Positions 24,377-63,220 of a stretch of DNA of 64,000 nt are shown piece by piece. A program made the translations under genes and the position numbers. The stretch lies in assembly GCF_002775205.1 (NCBI RefSeq), contig NC_036456.1, positions 6,463,463 to 6,527,462 on the forward strand, in the 5' to 3' direction. Under the pieces are notes generated by a model. That model searched no databases. It was given only the letters and a program-made list of their open reading frames with translations, and was not told the origin of the DNA. Source of the stretch: Xiphophorus maculatus. Its lineage: Eukaryota > Chordata > Actinopteri > Cyprinodontiformes > Poeciliidae. The number at the start of each line of letters is the position of its first letter. Within the stretch, counting starts at the first letter, position 1.

Positions 24377-35557
<11,181 letters not shown>

Positions 35558-37763: not shown

Positions 37764-37769
37764 TTTATT
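37764..37769 (-). terminator. Likely polyadenylation signal of gene A
   Basis: The plus-strand TTTATT is AATAAA on the minus strand, 315 bp after the gene A stop at 38084-38086. It implies a short 3' UTR. Confidence 0.5.
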
Positions 37770-38083: not shown

Positions 38084-41000
38084 CTAGGAAACCTCCTGGT
38101 ACGGAGACACCGAAGCCTTCCTCATCCGATCAATCTGGATCTGGTCGTAGACCGTCTGAGGCTAAATGATTGGGAGAAAATAAAAAAAATAAAAATCATC
38201 TTTAGGGTTTCTCAGCGGTGGATTAAGAGAATCTTTTCCTGCAAGTTCCAATGGTTAAACAATTCACTGAAGGTGCTGTGAAGGATAATTTGTTCTTACA
38301 GTTCTCAACACACTGAAGCACAAACAGAGAACAATTCAGAACTAAGACACCTACAACAGTCACCAATAAAGTGGATAGTGAATATGTGATGTTTTGCTGT
38401 TTACTTAAATCGCATATAGAGCTGGACAATATGGCTGACAAACACATCACAATACAAGCAATTCATATCAGTCAATATTGGTAAATATTGATTAGTTTTT
38501 TTGTTTTATATATCTGAAATGTATCCAAACTGGTGACGTGACCTTCACTGCTTTATCCACAAGTTCCTCTTGAACTGTTGACTCCATCTTTGCAAATTTA
38601 TTATTATTATTATTATATAAAAATGTAGAGATGTTATACAGAGATGTTAAATGCTCCCATTTGCTTCTGTCTACCCTGTGTGTGTTTTTTTAAAATATTA
38701 TTTTAGTGATTGGCATCATTTGACGGTTGACCGGTGGGGGGCGCCATACAGCTAGCCTAAGCTTTTACGCACCGGAAGCGTGCGTGGAGCTGCTGCAGCA
38801 GATCCGTTTTGTTAGAGAAAAAACAAAACAGAAGGAAGCGCGCTAAGGCTTCTACAGTGATAAAAGGGAGACTTTACCTTGGGACGGATCATCCCACAGG
38901 GGAGAGTCGGAGTTTTGGCTGAAGTTTTTTTGATTGTTTGGAAAGAGCCGACTGGACGCTAAAGGATTGTTGGACTGGGGAGTTCACGCGCCTCCTGCTA
39001 CTAGCCACCGATAAAGTCACATTTGGTGTGTTTTTAGGAAAAGACAGGAAAAAAACTATATATCTAAAGAAAAATAATAATAATACGAATGGAAAAAAGC
39101 TATTGAACTGAGGGACTGACGGACGAAAAGACTCTGCGGATGACCCTTCTCCACGGGAGGTCAGCTCGATGAGGAACTCTGAACCGACGTTGAAGGTAGG
39201 ACCCCTCCTTGCGGTGTGTTCCGCCAGGTGCCTGTTTTGTGAATAATTTTTTTCTCCATACGGGAGTAGGGCCTATTGTTGCGGCTGTACTCCCGTAACC
39301 AGTCAAAGAATTTACATTTGTGAATAAGACAATAAAAAAAACTTTGCTAAAAATACAATCAAATTAATTAAAAAAAAATATTTTCTTAGTTGTAAAAGCC
39401 AAGGACAATATTATCTCAATGTAAACCGACAGACATCTCCCCCCTCCTCTCTCCATTCTTGAAAATGTTTGTATAAAACAATCCATTTTCCCGTTGTGCT
39501 GCTTTCAATTGTTTACCGGAAGTGAAAATAGGCGTACAAGTTCATTTCCTGTCGCGAGATGGAATTTATTTTTACTCATTGGTTGTTTTTGTTTTTTTCA
39601 ATTAGTTGTGTTTTGCGAGGAAAATATCACACAACAACCACATATTAAATAAGATGAAATGGAAAGTAATAAACTGATATTTTCTCGATATCCTCCAGGG
39701 GGAGCTACTGCACCACCTGGCGCCCTCCTGGGCCTCCGCTGGAAGTTTAGCTCTCTTACCATTTGGCGATCCGGGCTGTTTCTGCTCTCGATAGTGTCGT
39801 ACAGAGAGCAGGGTTTATCAGAGGGCCCCTGGAGGTTCGCATTCACATGTATTAAGGAGAAAATAAACCTCAGTTAGGAAACTCTAAATCACTGTAAACA
39901 TTTGCTCATTGTAGGACTTGAGTGCACTTACCACTTCAGATGAAAAATCGGAGATATCGGCATAAACTGTGAGTTCGGTTGAATCGCTTCCTGCGTAAAG
40001 AAAATAAAATGACAGAAATGACTCAGTGGCTGGTAAAAAAAAAAAAAAAGCCACAACAATGTGGTGAGAGAGAAAACATGGCACATCAAAGAGTTTCTTA
40101 CCAGACCATCTTCTTTTGCAGAGACATACGCTCACCACTGTGATTATAATAATGATCAGTAAACCTCCTCCTACTGCAACGATAATCCAGACTGGGATTG
40201 GTATTCCTGCAACTGACAGCAGATTAACAATATGTCATGTTTAAAAAGAAGCAAATGAAAACAAGCAGGAAAAATAATTTGTCCAGCAAAGTGTGCCTGG
40301 AATACACAGTGCCTTGTATTCACATCTTGTCACGTTATAACCGCAAAACTCAACGTAGTTAAAAATGGAACAGAAACAACATTTAATTCAGGAATACCAG
40401 CAGCAAAGCAACAGGAGAAACGAGGCAACTAACAGATCTGAAACTCAGGAGGAAGAAAATATTAGAAAACATAAACAGACTTTATGTTATTAGCAAAATG
40501 ATTTGAAACAATATATCTGTTTATTTATCTTACCATTTTTATGCAGTGTGACGTGTTTGGTCAATTGTGTAAAATTCTGATTAAGATGCAGTGAAATTTG
40601 TGGTTATAACGTGTCAGAGTGAAAAAAAAATGTCAAAAGGTTTCGATATGTTTTAAAGGCAATGCATTTTTAGCATGAATGTGCTGTTTTTGTTTTTTTA
40701 TTAGTTTTAACCAGCTGTGACTTCAGTCAAACAAATAACAGACAAAAAACACTATAAATTAATAAAAAAAAAACAGGGATGCAAAACTTTAGTCAAGAAA
40801 GTAGTTTAAAAAAAAATCGGGTGTTATCATCAAGGTATAATTGTGTTTTAGCAAATTATATTTGATCGTTTAATTGTAGAGGATGTATAGTGTATACTGA
40901 CTCTTTAGATAATTTAATTATTAAATTAAATTATAATTGAATAATAATTCAATTATTTACATGTGGTGACGTTCATCATCTACGCATGTTGGATAAACCA

Positions 41001-44000
41001 TAAAGTATATCTCTAACTCTTCTATGATTTTTGTCTGTATTATTACCAAATATGGAAAAACATCATTACTTTGCGATTCAGAAAATTTTCCTAAGAACTG
41101 CAAGAAAATTAATTTCTAGGCTCTGGATCAGAGATTTTCTGTGTTTTGTGTACCTGTACCTTTAATAGAACAATACAGCCAACAGATTTATAAAATAATC
41201 GGACTTGTTCTCGTTGTTTTCTTCAAACCTCTCATTTCTGAACATACCTTTATTAGAACTGGGTCCTGTGGTGTTGCTACATCTCAGTGTTGTGGATTCT
41301 AACATCTCACTGATAACGTTGGAGGCTTTGCAGGTGAATGTGGTTTCGCCATCTTGTGGTCTAATGCTGTATTGCAGTGTGGAGCCGTTTCTGGTTTGGG
41401 TTCCCACAGTCCAGCTGTAGGTGACGTTACTGTGAGGATTTGCTTTGCACTCCAGAAAAACTGTACAAAATCCATCTGATCCAGCCTCAGTGACGTTGGA
41501 AAACACAATGGAATTTGTGGATATTGGTTCTAATGTGAGAACAGAGGAAGAAGTGTAACAGATCAGTAACGTTACACCTATGTGTATTTTATTTGCACAA
41601 TTCACACGGTATTTCCCTTTTTAATCTTAGAAAATTCACAAAGCTGTCATCAAATGATCAATTTCTCATAATTGATGCAACCATGAAATTTGCTTTCTAT
41701 CAGTAAATCCTAGGAGAATTTCCTGCGATCATTGTTTGGCCTTAAAGCTCGAGCACTTGTAGGTTCCTCAGCAGGACTGTGGCCCCCGTAGACATGATAT
41801 AAAAATTCGCATAAGCTCTTTTTTTTTTTTTTTTTCTTCAAATTTTCTCTAACAATTATTGTGTTCTTCACTTTGAAAATAGTGTATTAATCAATCTGTT
41901 CTTTAAAAATTTTACACACGTTTTGTTTCTTGAAAAGGTTGTTTTTGATTGACTGGATTGAAAGAGCAGCATCTTACCGTGAACTTGCAGAGTGATGAAG
42001 ACTGAAACTTGTTCACCTTTGACCTCTGCGATCAAACTGAATTCACCAGAATCTTGAAGAGTCAGGTCTCTTATTGTTAAACTAAAACTTGTGTCATTGA
42101 ACTCCAATCTGCCCTTAAATGGATTGGTTGGAGTAAGACCTGAATGTTTGTCTGCTACATTTGAGTCTCCATATCTCCATGTTGCCCTTTGGACCCCTTC
42201 AGCTGGTAAATTTGATGAAAGCACCACAGAGTCTCCAACTTTTTTATGAATGACTTGTTTTCCTTCTGAAGCCTCCACATCTGAAACACAAAACAAAGAG
42301 CATAACATTATTATTTAAACTGAGACGTTTAGATGTTCTGTTACATACAGTTTAAGGTTTACAGTTTTTTTTGAATGTCTATAAGCATTAGGGGACATGT
42401 CATAATTTGCTATCAGAGCTCAAACTCTTAATAATTAGATTTGTTGAGGAACCACAGAGTACAGGATTTGGTCAAATCACCTAAAACCACCTGAATTCAT
42501 GGGACATGTGAACGCAACAGTTTGATGGAACAAACATACCAACAGGTGGCGCTAATTCTCTGAAGCTATTCTCTGATTTCTGTCTCACCACTGCAGAGTG
42601 AGAGCTTACAACACGCTTATGTGAAGTGCTTAGTGTTATTTATTTATTTGTTTTAAAGAAATTTCGATGTTGGCTTTATGTGAATGGACCACAAGATGAA
42701 GTTCAGACTTTATTCAAAAATTTGGAGTTTATAACTTAATAACTTAATTCTAAAAAAATAAAATAAAAATCAGAAATTACAGTTTTGAAAATCAAGCAAA
42801 ATTAAACCATGTTAATAATTGACAGTTAATAATGTCAAAGCCTTTTAAAACATTATGATTAAAATTTGAAATGATTCGTTTAGGGCTCTTTGTCATTTGT
42901 TACGGTTTTGTCGCCTCTCTTTTGTGTCATTTTTTTAAAATTAATGTGTGATTATTTGTTAGTTTGTATTATGTCAAAAGTAATATTTTTCCATATTCAT
43001 ATAACTGATCTTTTGTCTTTTGTCCATTGGCTCCCATCATGTCCAATTGTGCTTGTGCTCAGTTCATATTATCCAATCAATCTGGATTCTGCAAAATTAA
43101 AAACAAAACAAAAAAGAAACATGTTTGTTTGGTCGAGTTGGTTCTGTTCGCCTCACACACTTGCAGACTCTGGTCTTCGTCTCTCTCCTCTCACACCAAG
43201 AGATTTTTACTCAAACTTGCCCTGCTGACTGATTTTCCCTGATTGGAAATCTGTGGTAAAATTGAGCAAATAAAATGAGTAGTTGAGTTCCTGCTTATGG
43301 ATTTTTACTTAGATGGAGAGGAGATTTATTGCTGTAGTTGAGGAAATCAGTTTATGGCTGTGAGTTCAAACACTTTACTGACCTTTACGTCCAGATTTAA
43401 GGTGTTTAAGCAATGACTTAGAATCAGCTTATGCATTTCCCATAAAAATCTAAAGAGGACTCAAGAAAATAAAGTAAATGAATTATGACCCAGAAACAGT
43501 CAAATTTTACTATTGAAGTAAACATGAAAGTGGCACAGCTTAATTTTTCCGTGAGACACTGATTGTAATCAGGCATGTCAGTGAACCAACAAGATTATTC
43601 TTTTTAAACTTCCTATAAAGCAAAATGCAGATACTAACTGCATCTTCTTTTTTTTTTTACTACATTGTTTTTTTTCATAACCAACTTTTTCTGATACCAA
43701 AAATAACCATTTGCTTGGGGGGGTTTTACAAACAGAGCAAAATTGTGATTGTCTGACTTAAATTGTTTGCATGCATCTTCAAAACATAGTTATATTCATG
43801 TTGGTTTGATCAGGGGTCGTAATCGCTCATATTTCATAATAATTTACCGCCTTTCTGTAAGAACAGAGAGGTGGATGTTTTCTCTCTGGTCGGGTGTCAA
43901 GAAGGGCACCAACCCGTAGAAAACTTTTATATGTCCCCTCTCGTTGAAAAGAGTTGTCTCACAAACAGTGTTTCCTGAAAACATTGCCACAAATATAGAG

Positions 44001-47000
44001 TGACGTTAAACACCATCCAGGCGCAGTGTTGCTGATTGATTGAGGAGCAACTTGCTGATGAACAGATTTCTTCCAGCAAAAGTGGAGCAAACGTTGATCA
44101 GAGTTTAAAATCTGGAGAACCAAAGAACGAGTAAATTACTTTAATTTAGTTCATCTGTCCACTGTGTGTTGGAACAAACCAAAGAAGATGGTTGTAGATT
44201 TCAGAAGAAGCAGGAATATGTCAACCATTGGTATGACTTGAAAGAAAATTGACTTCCTAATTTAACACCATGAAATTGGGCCTCTGTCTCTTTAAGAAAC
44301 CCCTGCTCTTTCTGAAACTCAGCCCTCAGGAAGCCGCCACCACATCGCTCCTCTGTTAACCCTTTAACAACGTTTCTACCAGTGCTGCAGCTCAGCAGCT
44401 GTGCAGTTCCACCGGGTTTTTGCTAATTGCTGCCGGCTAGTCTGTAGGAGCCGAGTGGGGTCGTGTGAGACGGAAGCTTGGAAACTGGAGGAACTGCTTT
44501 GTCCTGGAAGGCGGAGCTAGGTCCCCCCAGGCGTTTTGCACAGCTGAATGGTTGCCACGGGAGATTAAAGGATTTCTCAAACACGCATGAAGGAATCAAA
44601 GTAACACTCTCCAGGTCTGTTTTTGATGAGGGAGTAACATTCTAACATGATTACTGTCCATAAGACTGCTCCTTTAAACAAGTGCATAATTATTAGACTA
44701 GCCACTCTTGTGAAAGGAAATTCTAGTTTATTTTCTGTACAGCAGGTCGTGTGTCTAATCAGTATGCAAACAGAACAAAGTACTTCTCCATTTAAAAGGA
44801 TCAAATTTATATCTGTCTGCTCTGTGAATTTCTGCTGCTACAATTAGAAACAGGGCTGATCTCCGTGAGCTGCAGGTATGACACCGCATCTCGTGAACGT
44901 TTATTTCCAAAAAATAAAAATGATCAACTAAAGTTTTACCAGAAGAAATCTCTTAACTATGGTTTGTATCTGTTTTAAGAACCAGCCTTTTGGCCTTGGG
45001 CTTTTTCATTTTTAACTGTTTGCAAAAACCTCGGCAGCTACAACAAGGAAGTGTAATCAAACACTTGAAAACACTCCGAGGTGTTTTTTATCACACAAAA
45101 GCGGCAGCTACGTGACTTACTGGTGAGTTCCTGTTGTTGGACAAACAGGAAAATGGTTTAATGAAGTGATTAAACTTCTTATAACGCGCATCATCAGATA
45201 CAGAATAATTAAAGCCGCCCCGCGCTGACAGACATTTTAAAACTGTAGACAAGCGGGACTTCACTTGACATGTTTTATGTCTTAAAAAATGAAGAGAAAA
45301 CAATAAAAAAAACATTAGTACTATCTATTGGAATGGCTTCTCTGTCTGAAAACTCAGAATCTTAGATTTAAAAGCTTTAAGTAAGAAAGAAATATTGAAA
45401 GATGCAATTACTTGAATTACTTTGCTGTAGTTGGACAGTTGTAGGTTTTTATTACATCCCCAACCCGCAAAATCCAATATATTTACCTTTCATGTAAATT
45501 TCTGTAAGTCAGAAATAAACTGTTTGCCCTCTTTGCTTTTTCAGTTCAACCTTTCTTGGTGAACATGTAAGTTAAATGCTTGAAAACATGCAAATACGAG
45601 TTAATACACGTTATTCACTTGTATTGCTAGCAGCTGTTGACCTGGTGATTTAGCATATTAATTAGCTAATCCTTCGGGTTTTTGTACTTTTGTACACTTT
45701 TAAGTTGGGCTTGAAATCTCGACGTCCGAAATCTCGACGTTTGTTTCTGGTTCATCGTTGCCTGCTTTACTTTCTGCACGGAGACCTCAGAAGATCTTAA
45801 AGTTCTCAAAGATCTTTAAGATCTTTGTTTACTTGAACAAGCCGCCTACTGGGCTTCCGGTGCTCAGTGGCCCTGCAGCGCTGTTGACTCAATAACCTGG
45901 CAAACATCAACGCTAATGTTTTTTTTTCCGAGTACCGCTAAAGACTCGCCAAGTACCACCTGTGATACCTGAGCCTCAGCTTGAGCACCACGTTTTTACT
46001 CTCTTTGTAGTCAGTGGAAAAACCTTTATTACTATTACAGCCATGAAGAGCTTCTCCTGGCTGCTAAACAGTTTTAGTTTTTCATCTTTGGCAATGAGCT
46101 CCAACTCTTTGAGGATGGACAAACTCTTCGCCATCACCCTAATCTTTATCAAAGATCATCAAACTTAAATAAGAAGCCAGCTGGGGCCTTGCAGGGGAGG
46201 TCAGATGTCAAGGACTGTATCCTGAAAACTGTCAGGTCAGCAGTTATATCCGTGATTGTCGGGATCATTTCTTCTTTTATTGGTTAATGTAATATTAAAA
46301 GTTGCGCCGAAAGTGAAATTTGAAAGTGGATCTGCACATTCTTAATAATTACACTTAGCCGAATTAAATATATCACTCAACGTGTTCAATGAATCTATTT
46401 GAATTGCTGTTGTTTTGAACTGAAGCAGAACAATCTTTCGGTGTCAAACTAACTTTCACTGAAAAACGGGAGCAGTCGCTCCAACTTGAATATGTCGCGT
46501 TGATTAGACACACACAGTCAAATGAAGTCTGTCCAAGTTCATTTATGAAATTGCCAAGTTAAATAAACGTAAATAAATTTAGCCTGACGCTTCATTCAGT
46601 TACTTGTGACATTTTTCTTTTTCTTTTTTACTTGGAGCTCCGTTCTCCCCGTATTTTTTCCAACGAGGGAAAGTTTTCAGTGAAGAAAACTAAAGAACAA
46701 AACGGATGTGTCAGAGTTCGATCATTAGCTCGCACTTTTTGAATAAAGGTCATTTGCATGTTCGCGTGACGGCCAACTTTGCATCATTTCCCTGGAAAAC
46801 GGAGACGAACCGCAAACCGTTCAAGGTTCAAATAAAAAAAGTCTGTATCCGTGTCGCTACTTTCGGTCAGCGTCACTGCTTTTGGTGGAGAACACGCAGG
46901 AAATGCCACCGTTGCTTTTGGTCATGTTTCTGTCTCACACTTTTACAACACACACAAAAAATCAGAAAACAGCCGACGACTGAAGAGCTACAGATAGCAG

Positions 47001-47642
47001 CTAGAGCTCTGAAGTGCGGCCTGACAGAGTGAATGGTATTTCGCTGTGACCTACAATTCGAAGAGCAGAGCAGGAAGTGACAAAAAGAGAAAGGATGATC
47101 TGTCTTCCAAGTTGCAAAAGTTTCCATGAATATGTAGCAGGAAATCTGCCAACACAGCAAAACAGAAACATGCAAAACCCGACTCTTAATGTTCAACCAC
47201 AAGATGCCCGAAGGTTATAGACAAGGAGGATAAACTCAGATCTTGGTGAGAACATTCATTTTCATCGGGATGTTCCAGTTCCCAAATTTTTATGCAACTT
47301 CAGCTTCAAATGTAGACAGGAAAACTTCCTCAATGACAACATCGTATATTTGAACAAATCAATTCCGAAAAACACTACGAGGAAAGAATAATAATATAAA
47401 TAAAATAAAAAAACATCTAAGAAACGACGCCTCCTTTCCCAAGGAAGTGCGCAAACATTCCGTTCCAAGGAACCGAATGGTAATTCTCTGTCAAAGCCAC
47501 AACTACAGAAAAGCGGGAGGTCGATGGCCCTCCGTGGCAGCAAACGTGAAGGGCAGAACCGTGACAACGTACCGTGGCGGGAGACCCCGAGCAGCAGCGC
47601 GGCCGCGTACGCCAGGAGGCAGCTCAGGCGACCACCAGCCAT
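38084..47642 (-). CDS. SLAM-family receptor (gene A): V + C2 + TM + tail with two ITSMs and one ITSM-like motif
   Basis: Putative leukocyte adhesion/signalling receptor that would recruit SAP/SH2D1A-type SH2 adaptors or phosphatases. Exons, 5' to 3' on the minus strand: 47642-47573 (signal MAGGRLSCLLAYAAALLLG), 42280-41978 (V), 41529-41248 (C2), 40206-40102 (TM), 39990-39932 and 38161-38084 (tail, stop 38084). Phases are 1,1,1,1,0 and the product is 298 aa. The V domain (24-124) lacks cysteines as in the CD2 family, with VGDSVVLSSNLP, ATWRYGD, FKGRLEFNDTSFSLTI and DSGEFSLIAEV. C2 has Cys146, 152, 191 and 208, the four-cysteine pattern of SLAM D2, with Trp164. TM is about residues 224-248, uncharged, then KRRW. 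The tail has TVYADI (261-266), TVYDQI (276-281) and SPYQEV (292-297). The first two match TxYxxI/V exactly; the last is ITSM-like with Ser. Individual human orthology is not assignable. Confidence 0.9.
38162..39931 (-). other. Gene A intron 5, with an unexplained GC-richer block
   Basis: No coding exon is supported. Roughly 38740-39250 is noticeably richer in G+C than its surroundings and reads like a non-coding transcript leader or an old element, ending in a donor-like aag|gtagga on the + strand near 39195. A short inverted repeat lies at 39258-39297. Confidence 0.4.
39258..39297. repeat. Short inverted repeat, 10-bp arms
   Basis: TACGGGAGTA (39258-39267) and TACTCCCGTA (39288-39297) are perfect inverses around a 20-nt loop. 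It could be a weak hairpin or a transposon footprint. Confidence 0.7.
42281..47572 (-). other. Gene A intron 1
   Basis: About 5.3 kb between signal and V exons. No coding exon is recognised. It includes a dispersed repeat at about 44265-44660 and AT-rich unique-looking sequence. Confidence 0.6.
44265..44660. repeat. Dispersed fish repeat starting with the CTGTCTCTTTAAGAA motif
   Basis: It starts GAAATTGGGCCTCTGTCTCT, the same terminus as the MITE at 34995-35177, but has a different, GC-richer interior (tgctgccggctagtctgtagg..., ggcggagctagg...). It is probably an independent, longer family member. The right boundary is uncertain. Confidence 0.45.
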
Positions 47643-48132
47643 CTCTGTGGGGAGCGGAGCAGTGTCTGTTTCCTCTTCTGCTCGCTGCACAATGTCAGCA
47701 AAGTTTAAAAAAAAAAAAAAAAAACAGAAGGAGGAAGGGGTGGAGGAAGCTTCTGTAAATGTAGAGCATGAAGCAGGTTGAGAATGCAGAGAAATAAGAG
47801 TATCTGCTAACATGTTTTTTTTTTTTTTTTTTGTACTGTTTTGTTCACTATAGCTCCATGCAAATTTTGAATTTGGTTACCCGGGTCAGTTCCAAGGCGA
47901 GATTTCATCCGTTGAGGAAGAAAGACGACAAACAACAAACCGACCGTACACTGCAATAAATGCTAACAAGCCGTTGACATCGCTCTGGAGGAAACATCTC
48001 AATCAGATCCCAGACCTTCACTTTGTTTTAATTATTATTATTTGGAGGCAGACTTGCTGGTCTACCTGCATGGGTTATGCAGACCCATGCAACCAAAGGT
48101 CACAAACTGAATGGGGGACGTTCTCCTTCCTG

Positions 48133-48163
<31 letters not shown>

Positions 48164-48784
48164 GTAAGCAAAATTATAACACCGTGAGGTATAGTATAGT
48201 GCAGCAAAGAGGGCAGCCACAGACCAACGCACCACGTTACACTTTCTGTACGTTGCTTCTTTTTTTTTTTTCTTCTGAAAAGCTATGTTTTTGTTTTACA
48301 GCAGATATAATATTACACACAGCTTCCAAAAAGTTCCACTTTTGTCCCATGAGTTCAACAAGAGGATTTATGGAGACGGGGTTTCAGGTCCTGTTGGGGT
48401 GAGCGGTGGGCTCCAGCCTCCGTACCTCTCCGATGGAGGTCGTTCTGGCCCAGTTTCTATGCTGCTGCTGAATCATGATCAGTGAGCTGAACAGAGACAG
48501 CCGGGGTCTGCAGTGCGTCAGACGTTTTTTTGCGTCAGATGTTTTTTTTGTTTTTTTTTCTGAATTAATTCGCGACCTCTCTGCAGGAGTCTTCGTTGCA
48601 CTCTCGGCGTGATCGTCAGCCACTCCCGAGAAGGTTCCTTCCAGGTATTTCCTGTTTGTGGCTAATGGTTTCTCACCGGGGTTTTGTAGAGTCCCGAAGC
48701 TTTAGAAAGGGCCGTTCCTTTGTTAAGATCAGGAAATGGCATGTCGTTTTCAGACTCTGTTTCATGACCATGAATCAGTCAATC

Positions 48785-48814
48785 AATCAATCAAATTTTA
48801 TTGATTGATTATAG

Positions 48815-48857
<43 letters not shown>

Positions 48858-49030
48858 ATAGCACATTTCAGCAGCAAGGCATTTCAAAGTGCTTTACATC
48901 ATATCAAACACAGAAATACAATGCAACATAGAATCAACAATCAAAACACGACATTAAGTCAGGTTCCATCAATACATTTGTAATTGATTACGTTTCAAAT
49001 ACAGTCCTAAACAGGTGGGTTTTTAGTCGA
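48785..49030. repeat. Fish interspersed repeat with internal (TA)n
   Basis: A (TCAA)n-like start and a TA microsatellite (48818-48852) are followed by TTTGTATAGCACATTTCAGC and AAGTGCTTTACATC. This wording recurs in many teleost dispersed repeats. Confidence 0.55.
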
Positions 49031-49824: not shown

Positions 49825-49927
49825 AGATATGCGCCAAAGTTCACTAGACCGGAAATCAAACCTGCGATGGCCGCATCGGGCACTATGGCCTCCTTATGTG
49901 GGCGGTGCTTAACCTCTGCGCCACCAC
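49825..49927 (-). mobile_element. Diverged tRNA-derived SINE
   Basis: The minus strand reads GTGGTGGCGCAGAGGTTAAG, then ...GGTTTGATTTCCGG and ...GGCGCATATCTTC. It has the same layout as the SINE at 25112-25227 but the B box is decayed. Confidence 0.55.
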
Positions 49928-49929
49928 AC

Positions 49930-50700: not shown

Positions 50701-53700
50701 AGATGTGAACAGTGTAACTTTTTGTTTCTGAGAGGTTGGAAAGCAGGAGAGAAAGTCATTCCAAAGCAAGTTTTGTTTTCATGGCGACAACAAACATAAG
50801 AGACCATTAGCTCTCAACCGGTGTGAGCACTGAACTTTCACACATTGTAAAAAAAAAAAAAAAAAAGCTGTTCTGTAGCTAAGAGCTAAGCTAGTTCGTC
50901 AGTGCAAGCAGCCTAGTGAGCTCTACATGTTTTAGTAAGATACGAAGACCTAATCTAACAGTTTACATCAACAACAGCTCCGGAGCTAGACCACATCCTG
51001 CCATCAGTTATTGATGGGGAGATACTGATGTGACAACTGCTCAATGTGGTAAATAAACTGTGTGTGAGCATGCCACAATTAGGCAGGTTGGTCACAAGAG
51101 CAGAGCAGAGCAGAGGGGAGCCTTTATTTGTCCAACCAAGAAGGTTTCAAGGCCAAAAAGAAAGAAGGCGTGCTAACGTTTTCTGCCTTTCACGCACAGG
51201 TACATAGCAGGAAGCATCGACTCTGGCTCAAGTGGGCATTTGTGATCCTACGCAGTGCACTCTACCTGAACCTGGAAGTTTAAAAAGTGACACTGGATAT
51301 GAATGACGTAGGTGTATTGTGAAACAAGCCCCCAGTTTGGGCTTGAGAGGAAGCGATGCTGTCGACCTCTGAGATAAGCCCAAAGTGTTTCCGGTTTGAA
51401 AAGACATACAGTTAGCTCGAGTGTTGTGCAGTAAGTTAAGTGGCGAGCAGTCCGAACACATCAACCACTGGGCTGACCATTTTTTTCCTCGTGAGAAAGT
51501 TCTCTTGAGTGTGAACCGCTGGTTAAAAAAAGGTTATGCATGTTGGGTGGAACTTTGACCCGAATCCGGCCTCCTGGGTTGATTTTGCAAACAGGGTTTG
51601 CTTCCGTCTTTGACCCGGAACAATGAGTTTGGTTTTTAACCTCAGAAAAATGGGTTAAAGTGACCAATTGAACCAGAGAGTCGAATGAAAATGATGAAAC
51701 TTCATAAGAGTTATTTGTAATTGATATTAAATAGGGATTTTATTGTTCTGAGCTTTTTAAAAATTCTTTGGAAAATAAACATGTAATAAAGAGGCTATGA
51801 TTTTCTCAAATGCATTTATTTCAAAACGTATCACAAGGTGGAATAATGTGCATGTTTCACATGTCGCTTTCATTCACATATTGCTCATCAAAAGGTCTGA
51901 CACATCAGCTGTGCAATACTAAATGCTTAATACAGTTAATACAATATGCATGAAATTGTTCAAAGTACAAGGTGGAGAAAGTAAAGCAAGCAGTTCATGT
52001 GAAATGATAAGAGTAAATATTATTTTAATAGGTAGATTGCCGGATATTGCAGAACATAACAGACCAACCTAATATTCAGATCCATCACTTCTTACCCAGT
52101 TTATGTTTCTGTTGATAAGAGACTGGGCCTCTATGTCCACTCACTAACAGGTTGTTGGGCTGTTGGTGAAGTTTGGCCCCAGACATCACCGTGTTCCTCC
52201 ACTGCACTGGACAGGCTTCAGTCTCCGAGTACGACAGCCATGGTCGGCCTCTGGATCATAACTAACAAAAAAAACTTAACAATGACAGCCGCTGTAGGAG
52301 TTCAGAGTTAAGAAGTTACTGATTCCATTGTAACACCTCTGGATTTGATACGGAAACACTTTAACCCTGGATTTTATCTGCTGATAATATAATAACTGGT
52401 AATAACACCTCAGAGTTTCATGTTTTGGTGTTAGTAGACTTTATGCAAAAGCAGAGTTAATTTTACTCTAATAGAGTCACATTCTGTTTATGTAACACTT
52501 TTGAATTTGCTGTGCAGTTGCCTTCTACTGCCTAATAAGACTTTTATCGGCGAACTCTTGAATTTGGATAACAAAATCCAAATCCACTTTGTTGAAAGAT
52601 TGCCAATGTGTAATGGCTTTATGAGAATGCTAAAGGCTAATGCTATCTCAAGAGAACAAAGTTGTCCTCAAATCTTCAGCGCACACTGAGCGATTACCAT
52701 TTTAATGAAACATTATTGTCCTGAGAGCAGCTTTTATTAATAGCCAGCCTCTAGAAAGCTGGTTATTAGTTCTGGGTTTGGTTGTTTACTTTTTCATCAT
52801 CTAAAAACTATAATCTTGGATTGGCATTATCCCCCCCCAAAATCTATGTTTATCAATGCCAAATGAATCTAACATAAAGTAAAGGGGAAAAAAGTGAAGT
52901 CTTTCAAATCAGATTTGCCCTTTCAATGATCTATTCACACCTATGCCACATTAAAATGATGAAAGCCATTTTATATTGCTAGATGCCAATGTTGTTATTG
53001 ACGCAATGCACAAGAAGCACTGCTCCAATAAGAGTTTTGTTTCTTCATTATGGTTTACAAAGCTTCACCGAGACAAACTACAGAACTTCTGGGTTTGTGG
53101 TGAAGGTGGGTTCAGTTTCACCTTCTGGTGAAATTGAAGAGCAAAGCTGTGATGTTTTCCATCCCACAATGCATTGCGCCTTGTTTGACAAAAGCTAAAC
53201 ATGGTATACCAGTAGAAATACCTCACACCAATTCTCAAGCATGATGTTCACATGGAGCAGTGATGGTTTGGGTTTTTTTGGGGGGGAGGATCTTAAGAAG
53301 CAATATTTCTATTTTGGCCATATGTTGGTTTAAGAAATAATGCTAAATAGAAAGGTGGTGTACAGTTCCCTGAAGTGACTTTATTGGAAACAGAAAGCAA
53401 ATTTCTGCGTATTTGGTATGTGTGAAAATATTTTTAGGCAACTGTGAACACACCTCGTTACTGAAGTGCCATTAATACTTCTTATGTCATGGTTTTGTTG
53501 GTGTTACTACTACATAAAGGAGAGAAACCCCCTCCACCCACCCGCAATATTATTGTTATTTACTGACCAAAGTATTTTCTTTACACTTCCAGTTAAGTCG
53601 TTCTCACGGTCTTCCTGTTATTGGATTTGGACGGGACCTTGAGTCTCATAAAACAATAGGTAACTGACTTCAAAGCAAGGAGATGAACTCTCCATTACCT

Positions 53701-55227
53701 CGTTAAAGTTACACAGTGCCAGTTATAGTACAGCTGGACATTCCCTGCATCCGGGGGACCGTACTGAATAACTTTTAGCTCTGTTGGATTTTGAGTCTTC
53801 TTTTCGAAATGGCCTTGCTCAGCCCAACACTTTGAACACCGGAAGGGTCCTTCGCATATAACGAAAGGTCACCGTGCGACTCGTTTCCTCTATTGCGCAG
53901 ACAGTGGCCCTTGCAAGACAGGATCTGTAAGCAGAACGAACTAACGGGTTAAGCACTTGTATACTTGTTAACCGTTGAGGAAGCAAACCCACACACGGAT
54001 AAAGCCTACATTAGAATACAAGCGAAAGAGTACAAGAATACACCTTAAGCCAGAGGGTTATTCTTATTCTAACAGAACAGGAGGAGTTGAGTCAGTCATA
54101 GGATTACTAATCTGAGCTGCAGTGCCTCCCCAGATGATCACATAGATGTTATGAGCTTTAAATAACAACGGCGGATTTTACCGTGTTATTCATGGAAACA
54201 AAAACACGTCATACTTCCATGGGAAAACTGGCTTATTATCTGGTAAAAACCCTCACTACGTTCTCCCAAGAGCGAAACTAACCTCCAGCTTGTAACCATG
54301 GTGATTACAGTTCCTACGTAGACGCTGCGTTTGACACCAAGGTGAGAGTAGTTGGCATGAACCCATTAATAATGACCTCACCTTGGTTCTAACACTGAAG
54401 GATGGAGGTGGGAGTGTGTTTAGGGTCTATTAAAATCTCACCCACAATAAAGTTAAAATAAGCAAAACAATGTTGAAGCTTGGTTACCATCTCATCAGAG
54501 TGGGATCAGACCAAAATAACAAACAAAGCAAACCAAAGTGTAACATTTTTTTTATCACTAACTGTAACACAAAAAAAATAATTAAAAAGAGGCTGCTCAA
54601 CCCTTAATCTTTTCAATATTAACAAACCGGTTTGATGTGCAGAAAACAAAAACTTAAGAATGTTTTTTTTTTTTCTTTTCTCTTAGTTTCTTAAAAAAAA
54701 ATAAAAAATTCAGGTTTTACAAAACAAATTGAAGACAGAGAGAATATCATGCTGCTTCTGGGCTCTGGAATTTCATTTGATTTTAAAACAGCCAGATGTT
54801 TGGTTGGGCAGGGAACCAATCAACAGCCAAGAAGTCTTTAGGCCACATTGGAAGAACCACAAAGACCATCAGGTGAACCAAAACATTTTCTTTGAGTGAA
54901 ACGATCTTGACAGAAAGCAAACAGCTGGAGTGAAAACCCTATCCAATCAAACAACTGGACTTTCTGTTGGTTTCCTATGTCAGATAAACAGACCCACCTG
55001 ACCTAAGGGTTTATGTAACTGATTGGAAATATATTTGAGGCTGAATTGATTTATGTTGAGTTGTTACACAGATGACGTACGTGAGGATGGTATAAAAGTA
55101 AAGCAGTAGATGTTAAATTTTCAACTATTCCAAAATGTCTAAATTAAAATCTTCATGTTTAGCCTACATCAGTTTCACTTTGAGGATGCATTTAAACCCT
55201 TAATTTCCCCCTTTTGAATAATCTGTG
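50700..55227. other. Intergenic region between genes A and B, left half
   Basis: No gene is supported. AT-rich unique-looking DNA and homopolymer runs. One exon-like segment on the minus strand (52186-52261) is described separately. Confidence 0.5.
52186..52261 (-). other. Candidate alternative last exon for gene B (speculative)
   Basis: A T-rich acceptor (ttttttttgttag) precedes 76 nt that would read YDPEADHGCRTRRLKPVQCS... to a stop. A minus-strand AATAAA lies about 360 bp further on. It is in phase with a weak donor inside the last gene B exon (59692). It has no ITSM and no recognised domain. Confidence 0.2.
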
Positions 55228-55352
55228 TTGCCCTGCGACAGACCGGCGACCTGTCCAGGGTTTAACCCGCCTCTCGCCCGAAACGTTTGCTGGAGAAGCA
55301 CCAGCAGCTCCTGACCACACTGGGGACCAGGGTGTTAGAAAATGGATGGATG
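55228..55352 (+). repeat. TGGATGG-tailed fish repeat, third region
   Basis: It contains GCCCTGCGACAGACCGGCGACC, CGCCTCTCGCCCGAAACG and AAAATGGATGGATG, matching the copies at 27153-27411. Confidence 0.75.
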
Positions 55353-58300
55353 AATAATCTCAAATGCACATGAACATCACAAAACAAACATCAGGATATA
55401 CAGTACAAGATGATGTCATTTTTCTGTAAAGTACTGAAAGACGTAGGAGACGGCAACGTCCGTTCTTGGAAATCAAGGCAGCGAACTGGGATTTGTTCCC
55501 AGTCCCCAGAACAGAACCAGTTCCTCTTCTCACCTCTTCTGTTTTGTTGGCATGGACCACGTTTCTGCTTTCAGTTGCAGTTTGATCATATCAAGGAATC
55601 AAAAACTGTGAGTTTCTGCGTTGTGTGTGTCACATACTCCTTAGTTACGTTTGTTAAAATAAATAGACTTATGACTTGGTGAAGAAACCAACAGTCATAC
55701 ATTTTTCTATATAAGACCCGACAGGCCTTGGTAACTTCCAACGCTTTCTTTTCATAAAACTGTGATGGGAATATATATACATATATGTTATTTTATTTTT
55801 TTTATTTTTATTTTTTGAAGCAACAGCTCCACAAACTAAAATCTCTGAACAGCTCAAGGAGTTTCTCATAACATTTCAAAGCTTACTTTATTTGTTCAGT
55901 TCAGTTTAGAGAGAAAACATAACGGTTATTTGTATCAGTGACAAAAATAAGTTTAAAGAAATGTTTTCGACCTTCAACCTTATTCATTCTGGCGCGTCCA
56001 GGTTGCATTCCTACAGTTCTTAATACATTTAAAAAAAAAGGACACATTTAACCTGCCTTCCACAAACTCTTAACTGCTTTTCCAATTAAACACACGTGAA
56101 CTTTAGGGTGTGTTTTGAAAACGCAGCGGTTATGCAGGATTCCTCTAGAGGTTTTTGTGGACTCCCTTCCTGAAGCACCAAAACACATTTACTGGCATTT
56201 TGAAAGAAGAAGTGACACAATACCAGTAAAACAATTCCAACCCAGTGAGTCATTAGAAAACCAGAACCAAGAGGGAAGAGAAAGGACATCCAGAAATAAA
56301 ACGATTATCAAGGAGGCTAATTCACGTTAGCATTGCAGAAATATCTCATTTCTTTAGTGAAATGACACTCGCATGTCCTAACTAGATGTAGAAACGTTAG
56401 ACGTGAATAGCAAAAAAAAAAAAAAAAGAGGACTGTGCTACGGTCGGGCTAAAAGGCCGAGAACACGCCGCTTAAAGGAACAAATTCTCATGAGTCATGT
56501 CCAGTAAATATCTTATCTTTTCAATTTAAACATCATCTTAGCTCATGCAGATGTTGCGCAGCTCACTCAGATCAGATAACTCTTCTGGTAGACGAATGCA
56601 ACCCAGCAGCCATTTGCATTTATTAGCTGTGCTGCCCGCCGGACCAGAACTCTCACAGCTCGCAGAAACACATTTGAAATGCCCTGGTGGGTTGTTGATG
56701 TGTGTGCATGGAGGTAGAAGAGCACAAGATGTGTGAGTTTCACTCTGAATGTTGAGCACTGCAGTCGGACTGAAATATCACCCCACGTAAGCTCTAGCGC
56801 ATCACCCCCCCTGCAGACCCCAAGACAGTGTAACTGGAAGAAAACCCACAGGGCTCCATCATGTGGTCAGAAGTGTAGCTCTGACTTCGGCAGAACGCCG
56901 AGCGCTCTGAATACCACCGGTTTCGTTCAAGTGCCTCCCACTTCCCCAAAGCTTTGCAAAAAATAAAAAAGGTAAAAGCTGCGGAAGAGATGACGCCCAC
57001 ACATCTGTGTAGAGCTTAGCTGGACTGAAGACAGAAGGTACTTCGCCCTGGCAACTTTCAAGTTTTATGAGAAAGAAGCTTCCTTGCTCTCTCTCAGTAA
57101 CGCATTTCGAAAAAGAACAACAATGAGACGGCTAAGACTGCGTAAAACTTTTTGTTCGTGGACACAAATATCACAGGATTAAAAAATAATAACTAAAGAA
57201 GACATGTTGTGAAACAATACCAATATGAATCAGTAAAAAATGCTAAATGTATTAAAATCCTGCTAACAAAGTCAACATTAAGAAAAGAAGAAAAAGTTGA
57301 TTTTCTTTTTTTTGTTGTTTTTTGCATCTCCAATCGTGGTTATTCTGGGTCGAGTAGAGGTCATTTAATGATATTTAATGAGAATCAAGTGGCTAAAACC
57401 AGACTCAGAACCACAATGAAACATATATGAGGTGGCAATTGGTAAGAGAGAATAATATACAATTGATATTAAGTAACATATCCAACAAGTCTTGGAACAA
57501 ACGCTTCACAAATCTATCTGACATAAGAGAAAACATACAGTATGTACAAACGTTAAGACTGTTTAACATAATGAAAATAAAGTGTGGCAGAGAGAGACGG
57601 TGATCAGAGGAAATGTGAAGAAGAAAAAAACCCCAGAAGGCCCCTGGTCAGCACAGGCGAGAGATTTGCACTTCCTCTTGTAGAGAAGTGTCAATGTGAT
57701 TGATGGCAATGTGCTAAAACCGCAGTGAGAGAGTCGAAGCCGTTGAACTGTACGGCTGTCTGTCAGCTGCACTTTAGAGCATAAATAAAAGCTACGAGTT
57801 TTTAGCTTTCAGTAGTTCTGACGCTCTTCTGGTTTAATGATCACAGCTTAGACATTAATAATGAAGATTTGGGGAAAAGATTCTGTTTGTACTTGAAAAT
57901 GGTTTCACATCGTTAGGATCATCCTGCACAATGCTCCCTCTGGACACCATTGGATGGGTTGATGGTTCCAGGACAGGGAAGCAACAGTGACACCTGCTGC
58001 CAATCTCTCGGTACTACTGACTTATAATAGTGATATTTGTAATAATTACAATAATAGCAAAACATTACAGTTGTATGATGAACTAGAAAGTTGAATGAAT
58101 TGTTACAATGAAATAGTTGAGTTCCTATTTCCTACCAGATCCAAAGTTTTCATTCTAATTCTTCTTATAATATTATTGTTTGTCACTCAGTAGTTCTGTG
58201 TGAACTCACTGATCCATGTTCCCATTTCATGCACTGTTACTACCATTTCATTTTCAGAATGAACTTTCACTTTGTAAACAACCCAGTTTCTACTCATGTA

Positions 58301-59651
58301 CTTTAACAGGTGATAAACGTCCAAGTTACAAGCAAACGCAGCATAAATCTCCACTGTACCTTCACTTGGTTGCTTTTCTTTCCCACCAAGTGTGTCAGGC
58401 GCCGGTCATCTTCGCCTTTTCATAAATTTGCAGTTTTGGTTCCTTTGAGTAAGAAAGTGAAAAGTCTGCCATTGTTTTTCAGCTACTTCAGCATATTTTT
58501 GTAAGGACTGGTTCAGCTTCACAAAACCAAAAGGACAGAAAGCGAAACTCAATGACTTCAGGATCCGGACACAATCTGAGCATTTCTGAGATCGCATACC
58601 TGAAATATTAAGTCAAGATTTTTAAAATGTTTTTTTAGGTTTCTTTTTTTTTTTTTTTTGTCTTTGTCCAATGTTAGAATGTAATTATTCGTTGTAAATT
58701 TCCCCTTGTAAATTCAGATACACTTTTAGATTTTTGCTAATGTTTTTTATTTTTTTTCTCAGTCATTAGCAAAACAGAAGCAAAAAAAAAAAAAAAACAA
58801 CAGAAGAACCTTTAAACCAGAGGTGAAGAAAATAATCATTCATTTCATATTAATGTGCCAACAAGTATTTAATGCAGCAATATACAAATCCTATTCATCA
58901 TAAAACCCGAGACAGATATTAAATATGCAAATTGTCTAAACGGTCTGTTCTTCTTCTCATTTCAAAAACACAAAACACCAACGTGTGACTAAATGCAACA
59001 AGCAGGCAAAATACTAAGAATGACTCACAATTATGCGAGATACTGCAGTTTACATTTACAGTTCAGTTTTTTATATTTCACCATCTCAACTGACTTTAGG
59101 TAAAACAAGACAATTCGATCCAATCCTACTTTCTGTTTGTTCCTCGTTATCAAGTCAAGTTTGGTTTACTATTTGAATTTGTTCAAATGTTTTACGTCTA
59201 AGGAAACCCAGCAGATTGCGGGCCGTCGTTGCACTGTGTTGTTTCATTTCCCGTCATTCCAAGCTCATGTATGCAGCGACAGTGGAGAGGAAAAAAAAAA
59301 AAACAAACCCTGAACCAGAACCGGGCTCAGTGTGAGAGACCGTCCTCCACAGCCGGCTGTGGTTTTGAGAAGACAGCAGAGGCACAAAAATACAACTTTT
59401 CTAAAACTTGTCCACTCGTTCTCAATCGATTGTCCTGGTCGTTGATGGGAACTTATAGAGGTGGGATGTTTTCGTCTGAAGAAACAAACAAACAGCATCT
59501 TTCCTCGTCCCTGACAAACAACGTTTTGAGTGTATCAGCAGTTTGTACCGTCTTGTGCATCTGCAGCGCCTCCTGAGTTTTCATACACCAAAGCATCACC
59601 TGTCGGTAATTAAAGCGAATTGCTGCATGAAAGTCTGACGGCGCGTGGGTT
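55353..59651. other. Intergenic region between genes A and B, right half
   Basis: No coding exon is supported on either strand. A-rich and T-rich runs (56410-56426, 58648-58660, 58777-58800) and unique-looking sequence. The 3' UTR of gene B must lie in its right part, but no clear poly(A) signal is singled out. Confidence 0.5.
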
Positions 59652-62600
59652 TTAATTTTCTTCTAATTTGATCACAAAATAGAAAACTGACCCGGAAGAG
59701 GTGAGAGGTTGAGATCCAGCTGACTCGGGTCCCGGTCGACTACTGCCGCCTGTTCAAACCTGGAATGAATAAACAAATAGTTACATTTTATCTGGTGAAG
59801 GAATCGTGTTTGACTTGGAAAAGTTGCAAGACTTTAATACGAAAAAAGAGAAAGAGTCCTACACACCTGGAACAAAACACTTCTGTGGAAACGACAAACA
59901 AACCAAATGGGTTCATCAGATCAACTGTTGGTGAAAGACAAGGCTTCAAATAGCATATCTTACCCTTCAACCTTTGGTCGTAAAGCAGCCAGACCAGCAC
60001 TAGGATAACAAGAAGCCCGACAACCAACCTAAACCAAAACATGACGGGAGAAAAACCACCTCCTGCAACAATATGGAGGCAGACAGAAGAGCCGTCAGGG
60101 GACAGGACAGCAACCTGTGGCTCTGTAAACAAAATACTAAAACCATATTTATTTTTGTGCGCTATTAAAAAAGTTTCAAATATCTTTTCGATGGCGGTTA
60201 ATGGCTGCCTACAAGCACTCTCTCGTGATTGCTTTGCTAAAACCCAGTTTTAAAATCGGTACATTTTAAACTTTAGCGTGTGATTAAAATACTTGTCTTC
60301 GTTTGGGACATTGATAACTCTGAAGGCTTATTTCCATTTCCTGTAACGTGCGTCCCAGGAAATCAGGATATCGAAACCACCACGGTGCGTTCACAAGGAT
60401 GATTGACAGCACTAAGACCCTCCGCCTGGCTCTGATTGGTTGTCTCTGGTTGGGATCGGTGCATTTCTTCAGACGTCAATAGCAGCTCAGGGAGCAGGTG
60501 AAAGAGATTAATATTTTCCCTGATCATCTGTCTCATAACAAACTGTCTCAGCAAAAATGACTAAGAGTGGGAGATTTTCAGAAGATGGAAAAATAAACTG
60601 CACAATCGACAGGTTTTGAAATCTCTCTCTTTTTCACCTTTGACCCCAATATGTCTGAAAACCTCTTCTGTATGCATCTTCATTGTTGTACTGCTGCATA
60701 AGCGAAGATGGGTGTTCTTACTTCAGATGAGTGCAGAGTGTCACATTGTTGTTACAAGTCGGGTCAGAAGAAGCATAAAAATCTCCCATAAATGGGAAAG
60801 TATTTATCAAACTCAATACCTTCATCTGGAATCACATGTTCACATTTAACCCAACATGTATCACAGCCTTTATGTAAACTGTCTCTTGTTAAGATTAAAG
60901 AAACTGTGACAACATCCCCTTTTCTCATAACTTAATAGCCTGCTAACTTCCTTCTTTATTTGGAATCGTGTCTAACAATTCATATCTCATTCTTGATAAA
61001 ACTGGTCTATATTTTCTTTACAAATGTGAACTTGATGCACAAACAGGTCAAACAGAAGAATCCATATTTCTGAACATACCTTCATTAGAACCGGGTCCTG
61101 TGGTTTCGCTACATCTCAGTGTTGTGGATTCTAACATCTCACTGATAACATTGGAGGCTTTGCAGGTGAATGTAGTGTTGCCATCTTGTGGTGTAATTCT
61201 GTATTGCAGTGTGGAGCCGTTTCTGGTTTGGGTTCCCACGGTCCAGCTGTAGGTGACGTCACTGTGAGGATTTGCTTTGCACTCCAGAAAAACTGTACAA
61301 AATCCATCTGATCCAGCCTCAGTGACGTTGGAAAACACAATGGAATTTGTAGATATTGGTTCTAATGTGAGAACAGAGGAAGAAGGAGAATAGCTTATTA
61401 ATAATGGCAATATATCTATAGTTAATGTATTTATAGTGTGTGTGTATGTGTAAGATATTCCTTCTACTTCTTCTGTTGTGTTTATCACTATTTTCTTTAA
61501 GGTCACAGAAAACTCAAACCAAAGGTTAATAATTTAGCTCTTTTGGTCAAATTTTGCCACATTAAACGGCTGTTATATGTAAGATGCTTTAGGACTGGAC
61601 AGACTGGTGCTGTTATTGAATTCAGGTAGTTTATGAAAAGTTGTAAATGGATTAAAAGGATTCAGTTTTTCACATTTCTTTGAAAGGTTGTGAACAAAAC
61701 CAGCATCTTACCGTGAACTTGCAGAGTGATGAAGACTGAAACTTGTTTATCGTTGACCTCTGCGATCAAACTGAATTCACCAGAATCTTCAATAGTCAGG
61801 TCTCTTATTGTTAAACTAAAACTTGTGTCATTGAACTCCAATCTGCCCTTAAATGGATTGGTTGGAGTAGGACCTGAACCTTGGAATGCTACATTTGAGT
61901 CTCCATATCTCCATGTTGCCCTTTTGACCCCTTCAGCTGGTAAATTTGATGAAAGCACCACAGAGTCTCCAACTCTTTTATGAATGACTTGTTTTCCTTC
62001 TGAAGCCTCCACATCTGAAACACATTATAAACAACATCATGATTCATTATAAAGAATCATTCTTCATTTGTCTTTTAATAAATCTCTAGCTGGTGTAAAG
62101 GAAAATGATTATTTGTTGGCGTTTAATACAGCTAATATACGACACGTGTAAAGGTATAGCCAACACTTTTATTTGGAACGGTTTTCTGTTGAGCATGTGG
62201 GAACTGGGAATGGCAGACAGGCAGGCAGGGCCCTTTTTTCCTCCCCCTTTTGACAGACACAGCAATAAAATTTACAAGTCCGATAGAGCAGAAGAGACTT
62301 CTTGGCGCCAGGGATCTTCCGTATCAGGCAGAGATGACCACGGGGTAGTCCGCCCTTTGCTTAGATAAAAAACAGACACCTTTGCTATAAATCAGGAAGT
62401 CCCAACTTTCTTTGGGGGCCTGAGGGAGTTCTAATTGGTCGAAGAGCAGAACGCCTTCTTTGCATATATTAAATAGGGAAACACCCTTTTGGTTTATAGT
62501 TTCAGGTCATCACCGGAGAGTGAAGAGTTTTTTCATCTTTTCTCCACGTGGGCGCCTTTGTCTGTCTCTGTGTTTGTCTGTCTACCCCTTGTGTGTGTTT

Positions 62601-63220
62601 TTATTTTTATGAGAAAATGCATATCTCTGTTCCTCTGCAGCTTTGTTGTCGATTGCTCTGTATGAGATTAAACTCTGTGATCTGTGACGTCAACACGCTT
62701 TGTTGTTGTTTCGTTTTAGCAGCACGCGGTCGCTGCACGTCGCTGCACGGAGAGCGTCACTCGCCAAGGACTCGAGGAGAAAAGAGGAAAAGAGCAAAAC
62801 GTTTTGTCCAAAGCTAGCATTGAATGATCCTCTTCTTTTTTAATACTGGACTAAGAACTAACGAAAAAGCAAATGCAGAAATACGATCCTCTAGTTCCTA
62901 TCAGCAAAACTTTGTTTAGTAAGAACATTTGTCATAGATATTAGTGCAGATCACAGCTGATGTTTCTGATCTCATTTCTGCTATGAGACTCTTACAGACG
63001 CTCAGGTAGAAAAATAGACGTATACAAACTTTTTCCTTTCTAATTTCGTTAGTTGTCATCGTGCGTGTTAATGACATGTGCTTGAAATACTTCACTCACC
63101 ACCGAGCCAGATAAAATGTATTATCATTTGATGTAAGCAGATGTCAAACATACCATGATGGCCTAGTCCAAGAAGAACAAGGAGCAACGTAGACTGAAGG
63201 CCTCTGGGAGAAAACAACAT
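59652..63220 (-). CDS. SLAM-family-like receptor (gene B): ectodomain like gene A, TM with arginine, tail without ITSM
   Basis: Putative leukocyte receptor, likely dependent on an adaptor. Exons on the minus strand: 63220-63154 (signal MLFSPRGLQSTLLLVLLGLG), 62014-61712 (V), 61361-61080 (C2), 60122-59964 (stalk and TM), 59749-59652 (tail, stop 59652-59654). All junctions are phase 1 and the product is 302 aa. V and C2 exons have the same lengths as in gene A (303 and 282 nt) and differ by 11 of 101 and 7 of 94 residues. C2 keeps all four cysteines. The TM region (about 244-265) reads VMFWFRLVVGLLVILVLVWLLY, placing Arg249 inside the membrane near its outer side. The tail (GGSSRPGPESAGSQ...) has one Tyr but no TxYxxI/V motif. 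The signal, V, C2 and TM exons are well supported. The last exon rests only on an acceptor plus an open frame and is less certain. Confidence 0.85.
62194..62725 (+). mobile_element. Possible solo LTR in gene B intron 1 (weak)
   Basis: It starts TGTGGGAACTGGGAATGGCA, has a TATA-like ctataaatc near 62380 and an ATTAAA near 62667 followed by a TG-rich stretch, and may end in ..TTTTAGCA. No target duplication is visible and no internal region is present. It could be another promoter-bearing repeat. Confidence 0.3.

Follow-up and report, generated by a model that had tools for sequence, protein, structure and literature searches.

We analysed a 64,000-nucleotide stretch of the Xiphophorus maculatus genome (hereafter the window; C14:6463463-6527462 on contig NC_036456.1, in a genome of 704.3 Mb and 101 contigs), in which two neighbouring receptor genes, here called A and B, encode nearly the same V-C2 ectodomain joined to unrelated signalling ends. 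The two genes lie in tandem on the minus strand, B upstream of A, and vangl2 lies on the plus strand of the same window at 17.1-17.8 and 20.3-20.6 kb (Strabismus, E 3e-104 and 1e-33). Exon models for both genes were built on the minus strand (Table 1), giving a predicted product of 321 amino acids for gene A and of 322 for gene B in its form with the long transmembrane (TM) exon. Splice scores were taken from rough score tables; with a weak T2 donor in B and a weak T2 acceptor in A, the details of the tails are uncertain.

The V exon comprises 303 nt and the C2 exon 282 nt in A as in B, with equal phases and order, and of the 195 encoded ectodomain residues 18 differ (11 of 101 in V and 7 of 94 in C2), exactly as an earlier sequence-only reading of this DNA had stated. 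Comparison of the DNA of A (37.0-48.5 kb) with that of B (56-64 kb) by BLASTN at E ≤ 1e-3 revealed just two common segments, one around each of these exons. Their E values (Table 1) exclude chance as the source of the ectodomain match. Unbroken identity extends from the exon edges into the introns for 10, 11, 24, and 14 nt (the 24 nt beside the C2 exon) and drops off thereafter. The core of the V-C2 intron showed an identity of 0.465 between A and B, against 0.449 ± 0.029 in 60 shuffles, and the core of the C2-TM intron 0.417, against 0.433 ± 0.017 in 20 shuffles. The signal exons, introns, TM exons, and tails were without detectable DNA similarity. From this difference between exon and intron similarity, the V and C2 exons appear to have parted recently, and the introns long ago, if they were ever homologous.

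Genome-wide counts, here and below, refer to the best-scored candidates. The V and C2 exons were each found at two places, and the tail of A and the TM exon of B at one place each. One more weak V relative was located (L011, C13:9403412-9403627; 30% identity, E 0.002), and on these counts a larger family of close A/B relatives was rejected. The V-like exon at L011 has no cysteine at the usual cysteine positions, as judged by eye, and adjoins an array of V-set exons at about 9.35-9.40 Mb of C13.

The TM segments and tails of A and B gave no BLASTP match to each other at E ≤ 100. The best 19-residue hydrophobic window of gene A contains zero charged residues, and its tail carries two immunoreceptor tyrosine-based switch motifs (ITSMs) of the form TxYxxI, TVYADI and TVYDQI, plus SLYDTI, which resembles an immunoreceptor tyrosine-based inhibitory motif (ITIM). 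The corresponding window of gene B, FWFRLVVGLLVILVLVWLL, contains one Arg, located in the outer part of the TM segment, and no ITSM was present in any of the four splice variants tried. The earlier description of the ends as unrelated, with an uncharged TM segment and ITSMs in A and a TM Arg without ITSM in B, was therefore upheld. A minus-strand scan of 38-64 kb for TxYxxV/I exons, covering internal exons of at most 200 nt whose two splice scores were each 1 or higher (A's T2 and its terminal T3 fall outside this range), yielded none besides A's first tail exon. Splicing of gene B to a hidden ITSM exon, which the earlier reading had named as a finding that would count against the pair, was rejected on this result.

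The TM exon of gene B had been drawn as 59964-60122. Its 3′ edge was retained, and at the 5′ edge the acceptors at 60062 and 60122 are both in frame and score 3.6 and 3.6. Because the former gives an exon of 99 nt, like the 105-nt exon of A, the TM exon may be better taken as 59964-60062, with 60063-60122 intronic. The latter interval on the minus strand is a 60-nt in-frame extension encoding a 20-residue stalk with one Cys, and two isoforms are possible. The tail of gene B remains in frame to its end only with the 16-nt microexon, or with the tail exons skipped. Of 2000 intervals shuffled by mononucleotide, 2 gave a frame-correcting microexon (6-60 nt, scores no lower than 4.0 and 5.0). The predicted tail comprises about 50 residues and includes one YxN motif.

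Table 1 Coordinates of the modelled exons and homology islands, in positions of the window.
Feature	Position	Strand	Basis or remark
Gene A signal-peptide exon (MAGGRLSCLLAYAAALLLGVSRH)	47573..47642	-	ATG, phase-1 donor; one place in window by tblastn
Gene A V-like exon, 303 nt, phase 1-1, Cys-free	41978..42280	-	Exon model; with C2, matches SLAMF6
Gene A C2-like exon, 282 nt, phase 1-1, four Cys	41248..41529	-	Exon model
Gene A TM exon, 105 nt, hydrophobic core uncharged	40102..40206	-	Exon model, hydrophobic window
Gene A tail exon 1, ITSM TVYADI	39932..39990	-	Exon model
Gene A tail exon 2 (T2), ITIM-like SLYDTI	39760..39828	-	Weak acceptor, score -1.7
Gene A terminal exon (T3), ITSM TVYDQI, stop codon	38084..38161	-	AATAAA at 37764, minus strand
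Gene B signal-peptide exon (MLFSPRGLQSTLLLVLLGLGHH)	63154..63220	-	Exon model
Gene B V-like exon, 303 nt	61712..62014	-	Exon model; comparison with A
Gene B C2-like exon, 282 nt	61080..61361	-	Exon model; comparison with A
Gene B TM exon with Arg (FWFRLVVGLLVILVLVWLLY), 99 nt	59964..60062	-	Alternative in-frame acceptor: start at 60122
Gene B 16-nt microexon, predicted, restoring the tail frame	59867..59882	-	Exon model, shuffle test
Gene B tail exon 1, predicted	59692..59759	-	Exon model
Gene B tail exon 2 (T2), predicted, sole tail tyrosine ALVYENS	59549..59599	-	Weak donor, score -1.9
Gene B terminal exon, predicted, stop codon	59453..59475	-	AATAAA at 58746, minus strand
Homology island 1 (V exon + 34 and 37 nt), gene A copy	41944..42317	-	BLASTN 91% over 377 columns, E 1e-124
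Homology island 1, gene B copy	61675..62049	-	BLASTN match to 41944-42317
Homology island 2 (C2 exon + 14 and 40 nt), gene A copy	41234..41569	-	BLASTN 94% over 336 columns, E 8e-121
Homology island 2, gene B copy	61066..61401	-	BLASTN match to 41234-41569
Gene C V1	30348-30575	+	Phase 1-1
Gene C V2	30653-30763	+	Phase 1-1; V domain split over V1 and V2
Gene C C2	30954-31226	+	Exon model
Gene C TM	33428-33532	+	Exon model; tails at 35420 or 37030

Among solved structures in the Protein Data Bank (PDB), SLAMF6 came out closest to the ectodomains of A (E 5.4e-8) and B (2.7e-7), across both domains. The matches that followed were far weaker and of mixed kind: for gene A, Siglec-8 (0.0094), CD80 and others, CD58 (0.058), and CD48 (1.3), and, for gene B, NEGR1 (0.0016), CEACAM1, a CD48/CD2 chimera (0.011), and CD58 (0.014). 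In Pfam, Ig_3 and I-set passed the cut-off on the ectodomains and V-set lay marginally under it. Members of the CD2/SLAM family have a V domain without the usual disulphide followed by a C2 domain with four cysteines; in A and B alike, V holds no cysteine and C2 holds cysteines at positions 22, 28, 67, and 84. In human, VANGL2 lies beside SLAMF6. In horse, according to part of one report, VANGL2 and SLAMF genes fall within one interval, their order not being given there (PMC8532986). Based on the SLAMF6 match, the cysteine pattern, and the VANGL2 linkage, the predicted ectodomains of A and B belong to the CD2/SLAM family. The tail ITSM is present in A and absent from B, so that for gene B the family assignment would be carried by the ectodomain only. 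The motif is not obligatory in the family, as SLAMF2, 8, and 9 are listed without ITSM in a section of PMC10213746. PDB searches with the TM segment and tail of A and of B returned nothing useful. A similarity of the A TM segment to Orthoreo_P10 (21.3 bits, cut-off 21.4) and of the B TM segment to Adipogenin (below the Pfam cut-off; PDB E 0.14) were rejected as hydrophobic chance.

TM exons of the FcRgamma/zeta type (PF11628) were found at four places in the genome, reading ICYVLDGILFLYGIILTALYC, LCYVLDGFLGLYGLIITGMF, VCYILDGVLILYGIILTVLYC, and ICYFLDAFLMVYCIAATALFF, each with Asp in the ..L-D.. core. A basic TM residue in B and an adaptor with an acidic TM segment in the genome, the two things that use of an adaptor with an immunoreceptor tyrosine-based activation motif (ITAM) requires in sequence, are both present. 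The partners of FcRgamma likewise carry their TM Arg in the outer part. Fish homologues of FcRgamma and DAP12 have been reported, according to an excerpt of PMC4810170.

Between the V exons of A and B there were 13 nonsynonymous differences in 11 codons and 0 synonymous differences over 69.3 synonymous sites, a marginally significant excess of nonsynonymous over synonymous change (Fisher p = 0.045). Between the C2 exons there were 9 nonsynonymous differences in 7 codons and 4 synonymous differences over 65.0 synonymous sites. V and C2 together show 4 synonymous differences over about 134 sites (95% interval 0.8-7.5%). An old duplication held by purifying selection was rejected, since synonymous sites are near unchanged while nonsynonymous sites have changed. 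Eight of the 11 V differences, among them runs at 44-46/49 and 88-90, fall on the presumed CC′C″FG face, against 49 of all 101 residues; the borders of strands C, C′, C″, F, and G were set by eye from the SLAMF6 alignment. These changes suggest, but do not prove, an altered binding face.

A third V-C2 receptor gene, gene C, distantly related to A and B, was modelled on the plus strand between vangl2 and gene A, with a short tail and no ITSM (Table 1). Its V sequence matched that of A at 27% identity (E 3e-4 within the window), its V1 and C2 exons occur at one place in the genome, and no signal exon was found in 21-30.3 kb at the thresholds used. Its PDB matches (CEACAM1 best at 0.0011, CD2 at 0.022, CD48 at 0.11) are mixed with antibodies and do not settle its family. 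As a guess, gene C may be a CD48-like ligand of A and B. Its C2-TM intron holds a retroelement reverse-transcriptase frame (RVT_1) at 31572-32417 (+).

The 40 kb to the right of the window contain histone genes and C-type-lectin exons, the latter named by eye from reading frames, and no additional A/B-like exon above chance-level matches was found there. About 14-40 kb to the right of the window on C14 (L021-L023), histone genes are carried by an inverted duplication, 99.2% identical and 6.5 kb or longer, and a 1.4-kb inverted pair sits between its arms. Elsewhere in the genome, large arrays of V-set exons occur at C13:10.71-10.84 Mb and C6:29.6-29.8 Mb, many of them open and some with a stop (among the best 150 of 1632 candidates).

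The features of A and B are probably best explained if the two genes form a paired-receptor set within the CD2/SLAM family, in which the V and C2 exons have been matched by gene conversion and B acts via an ITAM adaptor. The locus shows near-identical ligand-binding domains with unrelated signalling parts, as well as the conversion signature limited to ligand-binding exons that is frequent, if not obligatory, in paired receptors. Recent exons within unlike introns are what gene conversion leaves when unrelated introns set its limits, and we infer conversion as the cause of the exon-confined similarity. A and B would be old neighbours whose introns, signal exons, TM exons, and tails have long been unlike; conversion, bounded by the non-homologous introns, would recently have copied the V and C2 exons of one gene over those of its partner, after which amino-acid changes would have accumulated, in V with zero synonymous change. 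The two receptors would present nearly the same V-C2 ectodomain, presumably to one ligand. Judged from family knowledge, A would signal via the tyrosine switch motifs of its own tail, through SAP/EAT-2-type adaptors if these are present and through phosphatases if they are not. Gene B, without such motifs, would most likely reach the surface and signal via an FcRgamma/CD3zeta-type ITAM adaptor, its TM Arg pairing with the adaptor's Asp.

The sequence-only reading had proposed an activating/inhibitory SLAM-like pair. The paired architecture is supported, the more strongly for the exon-confined similarity; "inhibitory" was over-committed for A because ITSMs can signal either way depending on adaptors, and "activating" for B comes down to one Arg. 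Part of PMC10213746 describes receptors with ITSMs as activating in the presence of SAP-family adaptors and as inhibitory in their absence.

Several observations weigh against the paired-receptor reading. The excess of nonsynonymous change was not significant in C2 (Fisher p = 0.51) or in V and C2 combined (p = 0.48), and neither was the enrichment of V differences on the presumed binding face (p = 0.083). The authors of a Xenopus study require opposite orientation for intrachromosomal conversion, in a portion of PMC5112662, and A and B share one orientation; exchange between sister chromatids or homologues would escape this limit. Two copies fit one conversion per exon or many, in either direction. 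Regarding the adaptor, an excerpt of PMC4810170 states that for catfish LITR 2.6b a charged TM residue is no prerequisite for adaptor recruitment, so that in fish the Arg points to an adaptor less strongly than it would in mammals. NxxR is given in part of PMC2413239 as the TM motif of FcRgamma-binding receptors, and the TM segment of B has FWFR there, lacking an N at -3. The predicted tail of B, at about 50 residues, is also not very short, unlike that of Xenopus TM1 receptors. A stronger form of the paired-receptor reading, in which exon-by-exon conversion repeatedly copies the V-C2 unit between the ITSM receptor and the TM-Arg receptor while selection alters the binding face, is offered tentatively, as a possibility less probable than the pair itself.

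The alternatives differ in how well they account for these data. Gene B may be an expressed receptor that uses no ITAM adaptor, serving as competitor, adhesion partner, or decoy for the ligand of A, or signalling through the tyrosine of its VYENS tail. VYENS is a Grb2-like motif, and the predicted tail with its single YxN, the missing NxxR motif, and the mammalian SLAMF2, 8, and 9, which lack ITSMs (PMC10213746, in part), all agree with such a role. We nevertheless regard it as doubtful: acidic partners for the Arg exist in the genome, and placing an Arg in the outer portion of such a long hydrophobic TM segment is costly without one.

About equally doubtful is a single copying of exon cassettes, by ectopic duplication or cDNA-templated conversion, in place of repeated conversion between old paralogues. 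Just two copies were found, one event per exon suffices, and conversion from spliced cDNA would likewise spare the introns. However, the intronic identity of 24 nt beyond C2 and 10-14 nt elsewhere, although partly made up of splice signals, argues for a DNA template, and the equal exon phases and order suggest that both genes already had V and C2.

It appears improbable that gene B is a pseudogene or arose as an artefact of assembly. The weak T2 donor would fit a pseudogene, but every modelled exon is open with splice dinucleotides present, the frame holds across five successive predicted exons after C2, and all 13 V nucleotide differences alter the protein, none to a stop; a duplicated assembly segment is countered by the distinct introns. 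If a whole SLAM gene had recently been duplicated in tandem and TM, tail, and introns had then been replaced, this would account for two neighbouring copies on the same strand and for the two copies found in the genome, yet it is the least credible alternative and was rejected, because a synonymous divergence of about 3% predicts introns about 97% alike, whereas they are unalignable, with identity at the shuffled level and no A/B homology beyond the two islands.

Among SLAM receptors, of which SLAMF6/NTB-A is the closest solved, the pair shares the V-C2 architecture, the V domain without Cys, the four Cys of C2, the VANGL2 linkage, and, in A, the ITSM tail; it departs from them in the TM Arg without ITSM of B and in the near-identity of the V and C2 exons. 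To our knowledge, the earlier statement that pairing is not a standard design in the SLAM family fits the nine mammalian receptors. The CEACAM pairs of Xenopus resemble A and B in several respects, according to parts of PMC5112662: conversion does not extend past the ligand-binding exon with its splice sites, synonymous changes are virtually absent, flanking introns are poorly conserved, and signalling motifs are opposite. They belong to another family and differ in that one N exon is converted between genes in opposite orientation, as opposed to two exons of tandem genes, and in that the activating partner has its own ITAM or ITAM-like tail, unlike B (PMC5112662, in part). The inhibitory and activating ectodomains of Siglec-11 and Siglec-16 are likewise kept alike by gene conversion, in another family and with a converted region that includes the sialic-acid-binding exon (excerpt of PMC5701461). 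Xenopus XFL receptors show the same two TM types, one with Arg that is activating and FcRgamma-associated and one uncharged with a tyrosine-motif tail, but their activating type has NxxR and no or a very short tail, and they form an FcR family of at least 75 X. tropicalis genes, against two here (PMC2413239, in part).

An ITSM and TM-Arg SLAM-like pair with exon-confined similarity was not found among the matches listed from the literature searched, which comprised titles and the starts of abstracts, with most subscription journals outside it. No teleost or amphibian SLAM pairs were among the matches listed from that search, which is no proof of absence in print. A 2011 work by Guselnikov on CD2/SLAM in Xenopodinae reportedly describes, by its title, expansion of the family with changed signalling and may overlap with TM-Arg pairing, so the idea of such pairing in SLAM receptors may have precedent. 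Paired receptors, conversion of their binding exons, and SLAM receptors are each already known; what would be new is their combination in one SLAM-like pair.

In mammals, SLAM receptors for the most part recognise themselves or one another and signal with the help of SAP adaptors. If ITSM and ITAM-adaptor-type receptors share a nearly identical SLAM ectodomain in X. maculatus, the family would have been drawn into the paired-receptor arms race of KIR, Siglec, and CEACAM. The V and C2 exons would offer a clean natural case of conversion tracts bounded by unrelated introns, in which conversion and later selection could be separated across related fish. If repeated conversion and selection on the binding face are borne out, a self-recognising adhesion family would have been turned into a pathogen-decoy pair.

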